Positions 3,411 through 8,990 of a stretch of 64,000 nt of DNA are shown piece after piece. Source of the DNA: Nitrososphaerota archaeon (GTDB lineage Archaea > Thermoproteota > Nitrososphaeria > Nitrososphaerales > Gagatemarchaeaceae); the NCBI GenBank assembly GCA_027887045.1, contig JAPCJH010000001.1, forward strand, positions 372,001 through 436,000. The letters run 5' to 3'. Each line of letters begins with the position of its first letter. The stretch's first letter is position 1. Made by a program: the position numbers and the translations under genes. The notes beneath the pieces were generated by a model that saw nothing but the letters and a program-made list of their open reading frames with translations, was not told the origin of the DNA and did not search any database.

Positions 3411-3518
3411 TGGGCCGGAAGGGATACGCTTAGAATATTAGGCGAATCCTGCATTCCATATTGCGAGGCAAAGGGTTCGAGCCGGAAGGGGCTCGAATGC
3501 AAAAGGATTCGAATCCCA
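3411..3518. repeat. tRNA-like degenerate repeat, copy C
   Basis: Begins TGGGCCGGAAGGGATACG, very like the reverse complement of a tRNA-Ile 3' end (compare 8895-8911). It then has ~40 unrelated bases, then GGCAAAGGGTTCGA, and ends with GGATTCGAATCCCA. The order of blocks matches copies at 4463-4565 and 5297-5399, with more divergence. No complete tRNA cloverleaf can be drawn. The rest of 3363-3720 holds no convincing gene. Confidence 0.4.
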
Positions 3519-3720
3519 GGGAGAATGCTGGCTCTGACGGTTGCGAGCAGTCCCTACAACAAGGGCCTAACGAAGCTGATTGAAACGCAAGGAATGAACT
3601 CGTGAAAGATATTTAAGCTCTGAAGACGAATAGAATTCCACGAAACCTGCACAGAAGGGCACGCAGAAGTCCGCCAAGAGCACCACCGCGATCATCAAGA
3701 AGTTCAAGGGATTCACGGAC

Positions 3721-4128
3721 GTGGAACGAGTCGCGATGAAGGAGCGCATCCAAGAGCTGAAGGCGGCCGCGCGCCCCGGACCGGGGGCGGACAAGGCGGG
3801 CGGAGAAAGCGCCGTGCTCGCGAAGATCGCCGAGATGCCGGAACCGGATCGCACCATGTGCAAGCGGCTCCATGCTATCATCAAAGCCAGCGCGCCAGCC
3901 CTCTCGCCGAGACTCTGGTACGGGATGCCTGCGTATGCCAAGGACGGCAAGGTCGTCTGCTTCTTCCAAACAGCGCAGAAGTTCAACACGAGGTACGCGA
4001 CGTTCGGCTTCAGCGACAAGGCGAACCTCGACGAAGGCGCCATGTGGCCGACCGCCTTCGCGCTGAAGGGGTTGACTGCCGCCGAAGAGGCAAGGATCGC
4101 CGCGCTCGTGAAGAAAGCGGTGAGCTAA
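3721..4128 (+). CDS. DUF1801 (YdhG-like) protein, apparently without its original start codon
   Basis: From GTG 3721 the 135 residues match the DUF1801 fold: [44 protein letters not shown] and [14 protein letters not shown]. Upstream, codons from 3634 stay open and read like the family's usual N-terminus ([22 protein letters not shown]), but the first codon after the TAG is AAT and no start codon follows until 3721. The gene is GC-richer than its neighbours, suggesting transfer from a high-GC bacterium and partial decay. DUF1801 proteins are small, poorly characterised, often called iron-chaperone-like. It lies between tRNA-like repeats. Confidence 0.7.
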
Positions 4129-4155
4129 GGACCGAGCTCCCCACTAGGCCCCGCC

Positions 4156-4449
4156 CTAAGCAGGATCGTCGGTCGGGACGAGGCGTTCCCGCGTGACGAG
4201 AACGCGCACCATCGTGCGCCGAACGAATCCCAGCCGCTCGACCCTCCGGAGATGATCACGGACGAAATGTCGCGAGGAACCGAGCGAGCGAGCCCCGAAG
4301 TATCCCTCACCTATCAGCCACTCCTGATACCTGAAGAGCCTTCTGATCCACGGCCCCCTGGTCCTCTCGCTGCTCAGCTTGTATAGCATCTGCACGACGC
4401 AGGGCATCCCTTCATAGTCTCCTGTGCCAAGGGAATGAGCTGGAATCAT
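4156..4449 (-). CDS. Hypothetical 97-residue basic protein, winged-helix-like C-terminus
   Basis: From the ATG at 4449 the product is arginine-rich. The segment SSRHFVRDHLRRVERLGFV near residues 60-78 reads like the recognition helix and wing of a winged-helix DNA-binding domain. I do not recognise a family. The frame stays open upstream through the repeat to 4710, but that part overlaps the RelE gene and looks non-coding. It could be a remnant of a mobile element regulator or a chance frame in GC-rich DNA. Confidence 0.3.
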   Translation of the reverse strand: MIPAHSLGTGDYEGMPCVVQMLYKLSSERTRGPWIRRLFRYQEWLIGEGYFGARSLGSSRHFVRDHLRRVERLGFVRRTMVRVLVTRERLVPTDDPA

Positions 4450-4462
4450 AACGGAATGAAGT

Positions 4463-4565
4463 GGATGGGCCGGAAGGGGCTCGTCAAGTTTCCATGACCA
4501 AATTTCAGGCCCAAAGGCTTGGCCCGCCAAGGGTTCGGGTCGGCCTGGATTCGAACGCTTGGCCT
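4463..4565. repeat. tRNA-like repeat, copy A (left of toxin-antitoxin pair)
   Basis: A 103-bp unit in the same orientation as 5297-5399, with about 86 of 103 positions identical by eye and no gaps. It starts GGATGGGCCGGAAGGG and ends GATTCGAACGCTTGGCCT. Both ends match the reverse complement of the tRNA-Ile 3' half at 8894-8923; about 65 bp of unrelated sequence separates them. Together with copy B it frames the RelE/AbrB genes. Confidence 0.65.
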
Positions 4566-4610
4566 CCAAGAGGCTTGGTACCTGATTGTCGCGACTGCTG
4601 AGAAAGAGAC

Positions 4611-4868
4611 CTACTCGTAAGCCTCTTTCCGATGCTCGAAACGAAGTAGAATTAACCTGTCTCCCTGGACGGCGTAGATCAATCTGTAAGGTTTGATTCG
4701 GATTGACCACTCTCCTTTCAGGCCATACCTGAGTGGTTTCCCGAATTCTGGGTTCTCCGCTATCTTCTCTATTTGCTTCCTTAGTCTACCCTTAACAGAA
4801 TTGTCTCGAATCTTCCTTACGTCGCGTTCGAACTTTTGCGTGTAGACTATTGCTCTAATATCTACCAT
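4611..4868 (-). CDS. relE: RelE/ParE-family toxin
   Basis: This 85-residue protein matches the RelE/ParE length. It starts VYTQKFERDVRKI, continues with a helix (KGRLRKQIEKIAENP) and carries the core GKPLRYGLKGEWSIRIKPYRLIYAV and LLRFEHRKEAY. These give the arginine, histidine and terminal tyrosine typical of ribosome-dependent mRNA interferases. It should cleave mRNA on the ribosome unless bound by its antitoxin. The start overlaps the stop of the AbrB-type gene by 7 nt, so the pair is one operon. Catalytic activity is inferred from motifs only. Confidence 0.85.
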   Translation of the reverse strand: MVDIRAIVYTQKFERDVRKIRDNSVKGRLRKQIEKIAENPEFGKPLRYGLKGEWSIRIKPYRLIYAVQGDRLILLRFEHRKEAYE

Positions 4869-5143
4869 TCTTTCAGCTCTTTGAAGAAAGCCTCCTTGGA
4901 GCGGACGCTATACCTCCCCTCTTCGATGTCCTTCCAAGCCTCTTCAACGAGCCTGAGACTCTTCAAGTCTTCAGCAGACAAGCCGGACTCCATCTTCTTC
5001 AGTACTATCATGCCATTCTGAGCTGCCACGGCAAGAACGCTCCCTTCCTTGATATCGAACTTCTTCCTTATCTTGGTTGGTATTACTATCTGCCCTTTTG
5101 AGCTGGCCCTCGTGAACTCTATTTCCTGAGCTCGACCTCCCAT
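4862..5143 (-). CDS. AbrB/SpoVT-domain antitoxin
   Basis: This 93-residue protein has a swapped-hairpin SpoVT-AbrB domain at residues 8-52 (ASSKGQIVIPTKIRKKFDIK, then VLAVAAQNGMIVLKKM). A helical acidic tail (SAEDLKSLRLVEEAW, FFKELKEW) is the probable toxin-binding part. It neutralises the RelE-like toxin and should repress the operon. A 15-bp palindrome at 5148-5162 lies between the TATA-like element (5166-5173) and the start codon, a suitable autoregulatory operator. AbrB-RelE pairings are known in archaea. Confidence 0.85.
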   Translation of the reverse strand: MGGRAQEIEFTRASSKGQIVIPTKIRKKFDIKEGSVLAVAAQNGMIVLKKMESGLSAEDLKSLRLVEEAWKDIEEGRYSVRSKEAFFKELKEW

Positions 5144-5147
5144 ATGG

Positions 5148-5162
5148 GTAAGAAATTCTTAC
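5148..5162. promoter_or_regulatory. Operator-like palindrome of the toxin-antitoxin operon
   Basis: GTAAGAA-A-TTCTTAC is a perfect inverted repeat of 7-bp arms around one base. It ends 4 bp from the antitoxin ATG and sits just downstream of a minus-strand TATA-like CTTATATC (5166-5173), so a bound protein would cover the transcription start. Confidence 0.6.
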
Positions 5163-5296
5163 ACAGATATAAGCGTTTCAGTGTGGCAATATTCCCTACG
5201 GTCGCCGAAGCTTCCATGCGGGCAAGGGTCCACTCCTCCCGCGAACGGCTTCACCCCGACAGCGGCACAACGGAGTTCAATTCGAGTTATTTCAAA

Positions 5297-5399
5297 GGAT
5301 GGGCCGGAAGGGATTCGTCAAGTGTCCTTGACCAAAAACCAGGCTCAAACCTGTGGCCTGCCAAGGGTTCGGGCGGGCTTAGATTCGAACGCTTGGCCT
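5297..5399. repeat. tRNA-like repeat, copy B (right of toxin-antitoxin pair)
   Basis: Same length, orientation and block order as copy A: GGATGGGCCGGAAGGGATTCG, then CCTTGACCAAAAACCAGGC, GCCAAGGGTTCGGG and GATTCGAACGCTTGGCCT. The first 17 bases after GGAT match the tRNA-Ile 3' end at 8895-8911 more closely than copy A does. Bases 5400-5632 hold no gene; GGCTAG-TT-CTAGCC near 5538-5551 is a small hairpin that could end the minus-strand cupredoxin transcript. Confidence 0.65.
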
Positions 5400-5632
5400 G
5401 GATTTCGTCCCCTCGCTACCTCGTTTTAGTGAAATTCGTCTGGATCGCAATAGCGGAAGCGGGATTCTCAGGCACAGGGAGTCTAGCCTAGCCTGTCCCA
5501 GTACTCGATTGGCACAACGAGACTGAAAATATTGCTTTGAGGGGCTAGTTCTAGCCAAAGTAAGATGGCGGGTGGAACCACATGTAGGTCGGAAACGCCC
5601 CTATCTTCTCATGAAATCTGAGGAGCCGAATG

Positions 5633-6430
5633 CTAACCAGAGGTTACAACTACCGTACCTATCATCCATGGATGGATGGTGCAGTAGTATTGGTAGGTCC
5701 CTGCCTGCGTGAAGGTGTAACTGAAGGTTCCTCCACTGGCGATGTTCCCAGAATCAAAGAGGCTACTTCCTTTGCTGGTCACGGTGTGCGTGCTCCCATC
5801 TCCGTTGGACCAGGTAACAGTCTGTCCAACCTTGGCGGTGAAGTTGGACGGAGAAAAGTAACCCGCCGCGTTACCTTGGGTCCCTGCACCCTGTACTATC
5901 ACGATGTTCGCAGTCTTTCCCACGTTTCCAAGAAGACGAACTTCAGTCGCCCCCGCAAAGACGCCCACTACCAGAGCTCCTGTGATGAAACCTACCATGA
6001 CTAATGCGAAGAAGCTTGACCTCGGAATCGTCTTGCCGACAGCGATAACAGTGCCCTTGCGCCAGAACGTTCTCACCCCTAGGACGGAATAGACGATCGT
6101 GGTAATCAGGGAAAAGACGACGGTGACAACGGCGAAGAACATCGAAAAGCTGGATGGATTTCCTATGGTCTCCTCGAGGAAGGAACCGAAGAAGAGCAAG
6201 AAGATTCCGCTAAGAATAATCGAACCGACAAATGCAAACCTGTTCATCCTCCACACGCCGTACGCGAGAACCAGAAACAAAACCATGAACGGAATCAGCA
6301 TGAATATGAAAGTAGCCCCTGTCGGGAGAACGGTGATTGTAATGTAGAGGAGGTAAAGGCCTGAATAGAGTAACCCTACGAGAGGGACAAGGACTTCAGG
6401 GGATTTTCGAGAAATCATGTTTTCGGTCAT
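5633..6430 (-). CDS. Membrane protein with C-terminal cupredoxin domain
   Basis: This 265-residue protein has hydrophobic segments at about residues 14-34, 39-57, 64-84, 96-118 and 138-158. They precede an external plastocyanin-like domain (VIVQGAGTQGNAAGYF onward). Type 1 copper ligands are visible as His in STHTVTS and Cys-x3-His-x3-Met in YYCTIHPWM near the end. It should carry electrons on the outer face of the membrane. The start overlaps the stop of the upstream methyltransferase gene by 4 nt, so the two are cotranscribed, though no functional link is obvious. Membrane-fused cupredoxins are frequent in Nitrososphaerota. Confidence 0.85.
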   Translation of the reverse strand: MTENMISRKSPEVLVPLVGLLYSGLYLLYITITVLPTGATFIFMLIPFMVLFLVLAYGVWRMNRFAFVGSIILSGIFLLFFGSFLEETIGNPSSFSMFFAVVTVVFSLITTIVYSVLGVRTFWRKGTVIAVGKTIPRSSFFALVMVGFITGALVVGVFAGATEVRLLGNVGKTANIVIVQGAGTQGNAAGYFSPSNFTAKVGQTVTWSNGDGSTHTVTSKGSSLFDSGNIASGGTFSYTFTQAGTYQYYCTIHPWMIGTVVVTSG

Positions 6431-7524
6431 GCCTTCTTTTGAGCGAAAACGACACGGAAAGGAGTCGGAGGTAGCGGGAATATCTCGACCTTCGAGTAGC
6501 CGACTCGTTCAAGAATTCTCTGGTAATCAGAGAAAGTGTACGCATTTCCTGCCTCGGTCGAGGCTAACATCACTAGGCTGAACTCCACCGAGTTCGGTGG
6601 AGAGACGCGATCCTCGTTCGAGATGACCTCAAGGAATACAGCTCTACCGCCCGGCTTCAGGGCTCTGAAAATTCTTGACAGGAAGACCTCGATGCTGTCG
6701 GGGCCGAAGTGATGCAGGAAATTGGTTATTAGCACAACGTCGTAATCATTTCCCAACTCCACTCCAAACGCATCCCCAGGAACGACGGAGTATCTATCGG
6801 CGACGCCGTCGAACCGCGCATTTTCTCGTGCGATTGGCAGGACGTTCTGCCAATCCACCGCAACGACCCTCGAATTTGGATACCGCTTGGCCACGGCGAT
6901 GCCGTATAACCCGCTCCCTGCCGCAACGTCAAGAACCTTCCAGCTAGCTCTTGTGTCTCCGCCCAGCATTGAGGCGAGCGATTCAGCGGGCATTCTCACA
7001 ATCGGGGTCATCGCCCGAGCAAAAGTCGCCCACACGGGATGCTCGGGGGCTAGCACCCCTCCCTTCTCCAGCATCGTTGTTCCTTTGCGCACGACAGATG
7101 CCAGATCCTTGAATCCATCAACGTTCGCCGGGGAGAGAAAGACTTCAACAGTGCCACCCATGTAAAGGGGCGAACTTTTGTCCAAGAAAGTCTTCGAGTC
7201 GGGAGTCAGCTTGTAGCCGTCAGTCTTAAGCTTCTCAAGGAAGCCCATCGTCACCAAGAAATTGCATAGGATACGGATTCCACGGGGCGACGCGTTGCAC
7301 CGACGGGCGATTACTTCTGCCTCCGCTCCTCCACCGATGGCGGTGAACAGGTCCAGCTGGATAGCAGCCTTCAGCGATTCCGTCCTATGAAATGCATTAA
7401 CAGCCTGAAAGAACATGTCCAAGAACGGTGGCTGAGCCACTGGTCCTGGACCCTCCTCTTTGGCGGTCATCGCCAAAGAGCGCGCCTCCAGATTTTTGCC
7501 CCGACCACGACTAATACCTGACAT
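6427..7524 (-). CDS. SAM-dependent O-methyltransferase (plant-OMT/caffeate-OMT-like)
   Basis: 365 residues to the first ATG. An N-terminal winged-helix dimerisation domain (AFHRTESLKAAIQLDLFTAI, GIRILCNFLVTMGFLEK) is followed by a Rossmann methyltransferase domain with motif I VLDVAAGSGLYGIAVAK, acidic motif II VVAVDW, NFLHHFG and LKPGGRAVFLEV. It methylates a small molecule that cannot be named. The ATG at 7470 (MTAKEEG) is an alternative start, because the TATA-like GATATAAA at 7532-7539 would place transcription start near 7510. It is divergent from a PadR-type gene, which probably regulates it. Confidence 0.85.
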   Translation of the reverse strand: MSGISRGRGKNLEARSLAMTAKEEGPGPVAQPPFLDMFFQAVNAFHRTESLKAAIQLDLFTAIGGGAEAEVIARRCNASPRGIRILCNFLVTMGFLEKLKTDGYKLTPDSKTFLDKSSPLYMGGTVEVFLSPANVDGFKDLASVVRKGTTMLEKGGVLAPEHPVWATFARAMTPIVRMPAESLASMLGGDTRASWKVLDVAAGSGLYGIAVAKRYPNSRVVAVDWQNVLPIARENARFDGVADRYSVVPGDAFGVELGNDYDVVLITNFLHHFGPDSIEVFLSRIFRALKPGGRAVFLEVISNEDRVSPPNSVEFSLVMLASTEAGNAYTFSDYQRILERVGYSKVEIFPLPPTPFRVVFAQKKA

Positions 7525-7532
7525 TGAGAGGA

Positions 7533-7577
7533 TTTATATCAGTCAGGCAGGAGCAGATAGTCACAGATTGTGACTAT
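7533..7577 (+). promoter_or_regulatory. PadR-type promoter and 9-bp-arm palindromic operator
   Basis: TTTATAT at 7533-7539 is followed by a perfect inverted repeat ATAGTCACA-GAT-TGTGACTAT at 7557-7577. The repeat covers the predicted transcription start and reaches into the ATG at 7576. The same TATA-like element could serve the divergent methyltransferase gene. PadR dimers typically bind such long palindromes, so autorepression and control of the neighbour are likely. Confidence 0.6.
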
Positions 7578-8514
7578 GAACAGGGAGGCCCTCGAGAGGA
7601 CAATTGTCAGGATTCTCATCGGCCGGGAAATATCAGGTTATGATGCATACAAGGAACTGTCGACCAAGGGGGTCCGACTCAGATCAAATTACCTGTATAT
7701 GATTCTCAGCGACATGCGAAAAAGGGGTCTCTTGAAGGCCCGCTGGGTTGAGAACGAAAAAGGTCCCCGGAAACACTTGTATTCGCTTAGCGAGGGTGGC
7801 CAAGAGGAGTTCAAAGAACAAGTGTGGGACTCCCTGAATGTGCTGATGAGTGCATTCCTCCACGCCAATTTGAACACGCAGGCCACTCCGGACCATCTGA
7901 ACGCATACCAGAGCTCGCTCGCAAAGTTCCGGATACCTCCACCGAAAGATGGGGACAAGCTCGTCTACACAACTCCTTCTTTCTCCCCGCTCGCATGCTA
8001 TCCTCTCAACATCCGAATGTTGAGCGATATGCTCCCGAAAGTCTCCATATTCGTGGTGAAGCCGCCAGGCATGAGGTTCTACGACGATCGACCAAACGTG
8101 ACTTTCCTAGATGGTCGCAGACATGATATTCCGCTCAAAGACGGCTTCGCAGACCACATGGTGCTTGAAGGTTTTCCGAGGGCGGCCTCAGAGACTAAGA
8201 CAATACTCGAGTGCGCGAGGGTGATGAACGAACACGGGCACCTCTTGATTCGGGTTCCGAGCGTGATGCTGGAGGAGAAGAAGCCGAGGTTCAACGACTT
8301 CGCCGAGTTTGCCCTGAAGCAGTACTATGATATCTCCGAACAGGATAGAATGGTTAGCATCGCCCGCATTAAGAACCTTGTCGAGGCGTGCTTCGGCAAG
8401 GTAATGACAGACGAATCTCGTGGAAACCTTGTTGTGTACGCTACCGAGAGGAAACGTGTCCGTGAGCCGAGCGCTTTACAGGAGCTGCCTGAAACAATGC
8501 TCCCGGCTCGTTAA
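7576..8514 (+). CDS. PadR-type winged-helix regulator fused to a methyltransferase-like domain
   Basis: 312 residues from ATG 7576 (GTG 7570 also possible). Residues 1-80 form a PadR winged helix: TIVRILIGREISGYDAYKEL, SNYLYMILSDMRKRGLLKA and RKHLYSLSEGG. Residues ~120-290 resemble a degenerate class I methyltransferase: FADHMVLEGFPRAASETKTI, then ARVMNEHGHLLIRVP, without a clear glycine-rich SAM motif. This suggests a ligand-sensing rather than catalytic domain. The palindrome at 7557-7577 is its probable operator. It lies divergent to a true methyltransferase gene and may sense that enzyme's substrate or product. Confidence 0.75.
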   Translation: MNREALERTIVRILIGREISGYDAYKELSTKGVRLRSNYLYMILSDMRKRGLLKARWVENEKGPRKHLYSLSEGGQEEFKEQVWDSLNVLMSAFLHANLNTQATPDHLNAYQSSLAKFRIPPPKDGDKLVYTTPSFSPLACYPLNIRMLSDMLPKVSIFVVKPPGMRFYDDRPNVTFLDGRRHDIPLKDGFADHMVLEGFPRAASETKTILECARVMNEHGHLLIRVPSVMLEEKKPRFNDFAEFALKQYYDISEQDRMVSIARIKNLVEACFGKVMTDESRGNLVVYATERKRVREPSALQELPETMLPAR

Positions 8515-8683
8515 GTATCGGACAGAGGCTTCGTAATTCAAAGGTAACTATGTCACCTTAGGTCCCCTAGGCGGCGTTGCCCGTCCACAACGGAATAACC
8601 AATTCAATCAAAGGAGCTATCTTTGACTATAAACTAAGCCTGTAAAGTCGTAGAGTCGTCAAACTGATTTCCGGCTGTAAGAT

Positions 8684-8816
8684 CATGGATGCGGGCCCGG
8701 TGGGAGTCGCCCCCAAATGGGTTCGAAAAGTGGATTTCGTGAGGGGGAAATGGTATAAGATGTGAGCACCCTGACCAAGACTTGACATTTGATGGCCAAG
8801 GGTTCGAATCTCTGGC
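8684..8816. repeat. tRNA-like degenerate repeat, copy D, within gene-free 8515-8893
   Basis: Contains GGATGCGGGCCCGGTGGGAGTCG, then CACCCTGACCAAGACTTGAC and TGGCCAAGGGTTCGAATC, in the same block order as the copies at 4463 and 5297 but strongly diverged. It lies just left of the real tRNA-Ile, and its TGGCCAAGGGTTCGAATC block equals the tRNA-Ile variable/T-arm sequence in plus orientation. I see no protein gene in 8515-8893. Confidence 0.35.
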
Positions 8817-8893
8817 ATTTTGGACGTCCTCCAAGAGAGCTCGAAACAGGCATCAAGTAGCCAAACAGAGCTCATTCTCAGCTAATTGAAGGC

Positions 8894-8990
8894 TGGGCCG
8901 GAAGGGATTCGAACCCTTGGCCTCTCGATTATCAGTCGAGTGCTCTAGCCAAGCTACTCGTCTCATGCGGAGACACTGAGCTACCGGCCC
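8894..8990 (-). tRNA. tRNA-Ile (GAU) with a 22-nt intron in the D-loop
   Basis: Reading the minus strand, acceptor GGGCCGG pairs with CCGGCCC, followed by discriminator A at 8894. The anticodon arm is CTCGA-CTGATAA-TCGAG with anticodon GAU. The T arm is AGGG-TTCGAAT-CCCT. The D-arm GCTC/GAGC is interrupted after GCTCAG by 22 nt (8954-8975), which contain GTCTC-CGCAT-GAGAC, a 5-bp hairpin. Removing it leaves a normal 75-nt tRNA with D-loop AGCTTGGCTA. CCA is not encoded. The insertion is at a non-canonical intron site. Confidence 0.9.

Follow-up and report, generated by a model that had tools for sequence, protein, structure and literature searches.

An AbrB/RelE gene pair captured in a probable ladder of segments inserted behind tRNA-Ile in a Nitrososphaerota archaeon

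The AbrB/RelE Pair and Its Flanking Repeats

The window analyzed in this study, a 64,000-nucleotide stretch of Nitrososphaerota DNA (assembly GCA_027887045.1, contig JAPCJH010000001.1, 372,001–436,000), contained two overlapping genes on the minus strand. The gene at 4862–5143 of the window encoded an AbrB/MazE-type antitoxin (PF04014, E 1.8e-8; TIGR01439 above cut-off), and the gene at 4611–4868 encoded a RelE/ParE-type toxin (PF05016, E 1e-15; TIGR02385 above cut-off), for which the nearest solved chain was Rv2866. The antitoxin gene came first, and the overlap was 7 bp. Judged from both domains and the overlapping arrangement, the pair fitted a predicted type II toxin–antitoxin (TA) module. 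These matches supported the initial annotation, which had placed a TA pair between two direct repeats.

The repeats, A (4463–4565) and B (5297–5399), both lay on the minus strand. It was observed that each measured 103 bp, that they were spaced 834 apart in the same orientation, and that they aligned without gaps at 83% identity (BLAST, E 1.5e-24), in agreement with the equal length, equal orientation, and roughly 83% identity noted earlier. Each repeat consisted of a right-end arm of ~100 bp and a 13-bp tRNA-Ile core, CCCTTCCGGCCCA. The earlier description of the repeat ends as matching the 3' half of tRNA-Ile was correct as to the gene but too broad in extent, because the tRNA part covered only the gene's last 13–19 nt, which correspond to half of the T arm and the acceptor strand; what remained of each repeat was an element arm that contained additional T-arm pieces in inverted orientation. 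Repeat B was identical to the 3' end of tRNA-Ile at 18 of 18 positions. The tRNA-Ile-derived end GGGCCGGAAGGG was found unchanged (12/12) at 5301, 4467, 3412, and 8895, and with at most one mismatch allowed, the window held five matches against 0.62 expected. A reading of A and B as generic tRNA-like ends was rejected on this composition.

Repeat B comprised a family I right-end arm and core (5300–5312) followed by a flank, B', that also stands behind the tRNA-Ile gene, giving an attR-like junction (B' score 42; 99.9% null 22). Repeat A comprised the same type of arm with a core at 4466–4478, followed by a left arm of the Int-2 type, giving an attP-like tandem junction (left-arm score 48; 99.9% null 22). 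Directly outside arm B, short repeats at 5402–5473 and 5497–5553 possibly represent another small repeat family; they were 84–88% identical to sequences in genomes G002 (C7/C12) and G029 (C75), and 96% identical to G029 C61.

The segment between the A and B cores comprised 834 bp and carried no integrase. The AbrB/RelE module was detected in 12 other genomes at 71–83% DNA identity, with the match limited to the genes and promoter (about 4608–5182). No arms were found near the homologues in these 12 genomes, and no other genome was found to contain the AbrB/RelE segment between cores. The candidate view of the pair as an intrinsic cassette part was therefore rejected, and the presence of the module without arms in these genomes indicated that the AbrB/RelE pair is captured cargo.

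A Ladder of Cores Behind tRNA-Ile

The attachment target was a tRNA-Ile(GAT) gene on the minus strand at 8894–8990 (arranged B, core, B'), with the core CCCTTCCGGCCCA at 8894–8906 and the acceptor strands at 8984–8990 and 8895–8901. The gene carried an insertion of ~22 nt in the D arm, a probable intron, and its 5' end was misplaced by ARAGORN and Rfam. Behind it on the same strand, the B' flank (8860–8893; score 34, 99.9% null 22) was conserved and recurred behind repeat B and many cores in relatives. A relic of the T arm of tRNA-Ile in inverted orientation (19/20 bp) was also seen at 8794–8813, ~80 bp behind the tRNA gene.

Cores on this strand lay at 8894, 5300, 4466, 3478, and 3411. Reading outward from the tRNA gene, the first core and B' flank were followed by a 3.6-kb segment, by arm B with its core and B' flank, and by abrB–relE; then came arm A, its core and the P2 left arm, the Int-2 relic, the DUF1801 gene, the core at 3478, and finally a family II arm with the core at 3411. 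The 3.6-kb segment, with presumed limits at the cores (5313–8893), carried genes for a PadR-domain protein, an O-methyltransferase, and a cupredoxin protein. Its interior (5400–8880) was rejected as a conserved element, since relatives showed scattered partial matches only. The right core of the DUF1801 segment stood at 3478–3490 on the minus strand (CCCTTCCGGCTCG), and the family II right arm (3411–3450, minus strand, core 3411–3423) was of the Int-1 type, AGGATTCGCCTAATATTCTAAGCGTAT joined to CCCTTCCGGCCCA. Taken together, the arms and cores, the integrase relic, and the core-to-core recurrence of 3478–4478 described below indicated that at least three inserted segments form a ladder behind tRNA-Ile in the window.

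Segment Gamma Recurs Core to Core

Segment gamma (3478–4478, minus strand, ~1 kb) was bounded by cores and comprised a left arm, an integrase relic, and a DUF1801 gene. The left arm, which belongs to the next element (4412–4465, minus strand), had homologues in the left arms that follow tRNA-Ile in G067 and G025. The gene adjoining the attachment site encodes an integrase and is intact in relatives; in the window it was reduced to a 46-codon relic of the tyrosine integrase Int-2 (4291–4428, minus strand), 67% identical to residues 95–140 of the G067 Int-2. A search of the window's own genome, whose completeness is only ~56%, gave no complete Int-1 or Int-2. The cargo, on the plus strand at 3721–4128, encoded a DUF1801 protein (PF08818, E 1.2e-5, slightly under the gathering score), and a homologue in G033 adjoined a right end.

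Gamma recurred from core to core in G007, which represents another species, at 87% identity. Further copies were incomplete: the one in G001 (95%) was cut by a contig end, and the one in G033 (75%) was missing its left part. Homology ended at the cores, and the DNA outside was unrelated. On this basis, gamma is an integrase-less parcel of ~1 kb that underwent site-specific insertion more than once. The earlier suggestion of a mobile cassette with tRNA-like ends thus held for this neighboring segment and not for the AbrB/RelE segment itself, which was not seen elsewhere as a cassette.

Distribution and Types of Arms

Arm counts for the window's own genome were taken from sequence searches, which returned a third copy on contig 2 (288828–288924), making about three copies in 1.2 Mb. 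For the wider distribution, we used a sequence model of the repeat and counted matches at E<=0.1. The search for more copies, proposed with the initial annotation, revealed arms in 32 of the 46 genomes of this Nitrososphaerota family, with about 40 places at E<1e-3. Matches outside the family were few (of 201 genomes sampled across the order, 18 were positive, and 2 of these lay outside the family). The named matches were archaeal metagenome-assembled genomes, and those with a taxon name were assigned to Nitrososphaerota/Thaumarchaeota. Family I and family II arms had no match in viral contigs.

Several arm types shared one common core, including family I (A and B), family IV, and family II (AGGATTCGCTTAATTAATTAACTGCAT). 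The core was mostly followed by one of three sequences: the B' flank (TTTGAAATAGCTCAGAATGAACTCCGTT), the P1 left arm (CTTAGAATATTAAGAGAATCC), or the P2 left arm (TCCACTTCA..CCAGCCCA). The family II and P1 arms were inverted copies of each other on either side of the core, the arrangement that an attP site should have, and part of the family IV arm was found inverted in the P2 arm. Core orientation was uniform within each array, with one palindromic exception. A stretch of G016 contig 1 (L055, 44.7–54.6 kb) held at least six same-strand tRNA-Ile cores and an Int-1 gene, with no tRNA gene in the stretch read; this array is either a secondary site or a displaced array.

Integrases and Occupied Sites in Relatives

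Two integrase families, Int-1 (429 aa) and Int-2 (524 aa), adjoined the core sites. Int-1 started directly behind an intact tRNA-Ile gene in G033 and G003, and behind tRNA-Ile cores in G016, G020/G012, and G067. The Int-1 segment ended 3.7–3.9 kb further on, in a family II arm and core, in G033, G003, and G020. Int-2 started directly behind tRNA-Ile in G067 and in G025, where the copy carried one stop codon, and in G025 a family I arm lay 40.8 kb downstream on the same strand. Another integrase gene stood directly behind a tRNA-Ile gene in G002. Among the aligned integrases, 12 of 17 members matched a PHROG integrase. The best match of the integrase profile was the XerC-like archaeal-type recombinase 4a8e (E 1.8e-11), and IntI4 was matched by the whole profile at E 0.023 only.

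Empty and occupied sites were also recovered among the relatives, as proposed with the initial annotation. The tRNA-Ile gene and its flank were contiguous in G016. The same tRNA (100%) and flank (97%) lay at opposite ends of a 69-kb contig in G067, ~68 kb apart, with the flank behind a family IV arm. We regard this pair as an empty and an occupied site differing by ~68 kb, with the caveat that the draft contig G067 C68 terminates in the repeat itself, so that the ~68-kb element may be an assembly effect at that join. The island-size comparison of G016 with G066 was likewise taken as evidence of empty and occupied sites. At the orthologous loci of G016 and G020 (94.5% identity), the match broke off within 3 bp of a core, one side holding a Doc segment and the other an integrase element. 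Synteny suggested that G016, G020, and G068 carry different parcels at one locus. A HicBA block including its arms was 93% identical between G016 and G068 and occupied different loci. The attachment core in the repeats, the integrase relic adjoining A, and the integrase elements of relatives lying between tRNA-Ile and the arms agreed with the earlier proposal of integration at tRNA-derived sites.

Toxin–Antitoxin Content of Core-Bounded Segments

Short core-bounded segments in relatives held Doc, HEPN-MNT, HicBA, VapBC, RelE, and DUF2283/DUF4258 pairs, and others carried DUF1801, GNAT, hydrolase, or regulator genes. The arrays were dominated by integrase-less parcels of 0.6–1.6 kb. Many of these started with the B' flank instead of an integrase left arm, and their genes faced both directions. 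Pfam TA families were present in 8 of 22 core-bounded segments (20.7 kb), a count that rests on our own assignment of Pfam tallies to segments, and in 0 of 44 length-matched neighboring stretches. The Fisher p-value of 6e-5 is indicative only, because the segments were picked with the sites already known and the control stretches came from the same contigs.

Small proteins of 79–103 aa, apparently coiled-coil, recurred in or beside core-bounded segments (L083:11662–11904, L120:8677–8916, L061:29–331, L125:6287–6598, and L057:841–1143). Separately, a 6-kb contig from another family (L059, G051 C107, 1329–5683) carried a family I arm amid TA-like pairs: three AbrB/PIN-like, one HicB-like, and one DUF5615/DUF433-like.

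Proposed Mechanism and Alternative Explanations

It is very probable, in our view, that tyrosine integrases stacked virus- or plasmid-like mobile DNA behind tRNA-Ile and so produced this ladder, in which the AbrB/RelE pair is trapped cargo. According to this model, at least two integrase families (Int-1 and Int-2) would recombine at the 13-bp core CCCTTCCGGCCCA, which makes up the 3' end of tRNA-Ile, the crossover presumably falling within the core. Each insertion would restore the tRNA and displace a copy of its 3' end, which then follows the ~100-bp right arm of the element, and repeated integrase-mediated insertion into the core would push older material outward. Repeat B would then be attR-like, its arm and core standing before the original flank of the tRNA gene. 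Repeat A would be a tandem junction of the attP kind, in which a right arm and core run into the left arm that belongs to the next element, followed by the integrase relic. Most integrases would decay while the segments between cores persist, and some of these would move as core-bounded parcels, as shown for the DUF1801 segment. Small segments might be excised by an integrase supplied in trans. The over-representation of TA pairs in parcels would probably reflect resistance to loss.

The strongest alternative, to which we give somewhat less than an even chance, is that pure decay accounts for the segments. They would then be remains of complete integrase elements in which addictive TA pairs stay, with neither movement in trans nor cassettes. 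The integrase relics in the window, G002, G007, and G001, the single stop that breaks Int-2 in G025, and the truncated arms fit parcels as such remnants, and TA pairs in integrated elements are already known (VapBC in NitKor-E1, PMC6563490). However, gamma has no usable integrase and stands core to core in differing surroundings of G000 and G007, with one end likewise in G001; many segments begin with the B' tRNA flank, which simple decay does not predict; and the HicBA block with its arms occupies different loci in G016 and G068. The B' flank at many left ends, together with gamma, favors parcel movement in trans.

A cassette system resembling integrons is possible but doubtful. The arms would correspond to attC and tRNA-Ile to attI, and an integrase acting in trans would move circles of gene plus site. 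This reading draws on the uniform site orientation, the small TA-rich segments, the variation in parcels among G016, G020, and G068 at the same locus, the core-to-core mobility of gamma, and the layout of B', cargo, and arm. Several results speak against a true integron: the attC ends RYYYAAC...GTTRRRY were present at both ends in 0 of 28 arms; the predicted hairpins showed no covariation, the stems of the palindromes in 15 family IV arms lacking consistent compensatory changes and only 2 of 22 base pairs in the family I fold showing a double change; genes face both ways; and the integrases gave better matches to XerC-like and PHROG integrases than to IntI. We therefore put forward only tentatively, and as rather unlikely, an independently evolved integron-like system of Nitrososphaerota, in which tRNA-Ile would be the entry site, the arms of inverted tRNA pieces would serve as cassette sites, and resident tRNA-site integrases would move integrase-less, often TA-bearing, cassettes between arrays.

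The occurrence at several loci of discrete units, ~100 bp long and containing inverted T-arm pieces, could also suggest a dispersed tRNA-derived repeat of the MITE or SINE kind, unrelated to integration. This explanation is very improbable and was rejected: the own genome holds about three copies, not repeats throughout it irrespective of inserted genes, and the arms abut cores, mark the ends of integrase elements, and vary in type with the integrase. Least probable of all is a structured RNA or tRNA-like gene. This candidate, like an attC-like fold, was rejected because the arms, whose folds were slightly more stable than those of shuffled sequences (z −1.6 and −2.2), gave no Rfam match and carry changes that break pairs with no compensation.

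Significance and Comparison with Known Systems

The ladder reading gives exact borders, as core and arms, for a mobile-DNA hotspot common to a whole family of uncultured archaea, in whose genomes TA pairs build up within parcels that a single tRNA-derived site delimits. Should these parcels move in trans, archaea would possess a system other than the integron for capturing cassettes.

The gene pair resembles RelE/ParE–AbrB type II modules in its Pfam and NCBIfam matches for both genes, its overlap, and its antitoxin-first order, all known here from sequence; it is framed by att arms in the window and stands without arms elsewhere in the family. Previous studies have reported that thaumarchaeal integrated elements use tyrosine integrases, insert at tRNA 3' ends (including those of intron-containing genes), and leave att repeats with a median of 17 bp (Krupovic et al. 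2019, PMC6563490; review PMC8371274), and that tandem insertion at one tRNA site occurs among them (PMC6563490, PMC8371274). The present system shares the tyrosine integrases, the tRNA 3'-end insertion, the short att repeats, and the tandem insertion. It differs in the recurrent ~100-bp arms with inverted T-arm pieces, in arrays dominated by TA-rich integrase-less parcels of 0.6–1.6 kb, and in the location of some arrays away from the tRNA gene (G016 contig 1). Tandem tRNA-site integration is thus already known, and the new feature is the TA-rich, integrase-less, core-bounded segments.

In bacteria, additive flexible islands with recurring tRNA 3' ends (the last 20 bp of tRNA-Lys) and tycheposons are known from Methylophilaceae/Prochlorococcus (PMC10872708). 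They likewise have cargo separated by a ladder of tRNA 3' ends, and tycheposons carry a tyrosine recombinase at a tRNA; here, in contrast, the host is archaeal, the target is tRNA-Ile, the cargo is TA-rich, and two integrase families with distinct arms share one core. Integrons also exist in archaea (Ghaly et al. 2022, PMC9668308). Like them, the present arrays are made up of small parcels, with recombination sites of uniform orientation between them, but the core is tRNA-derived, gene orientation is mixed, and neither attC consensus, supported fold, nor a clear IntI match was found. Because the arms show no attC consensus and no structural covariation, we classify the system among tRNA-site integrative elements, not integrons.
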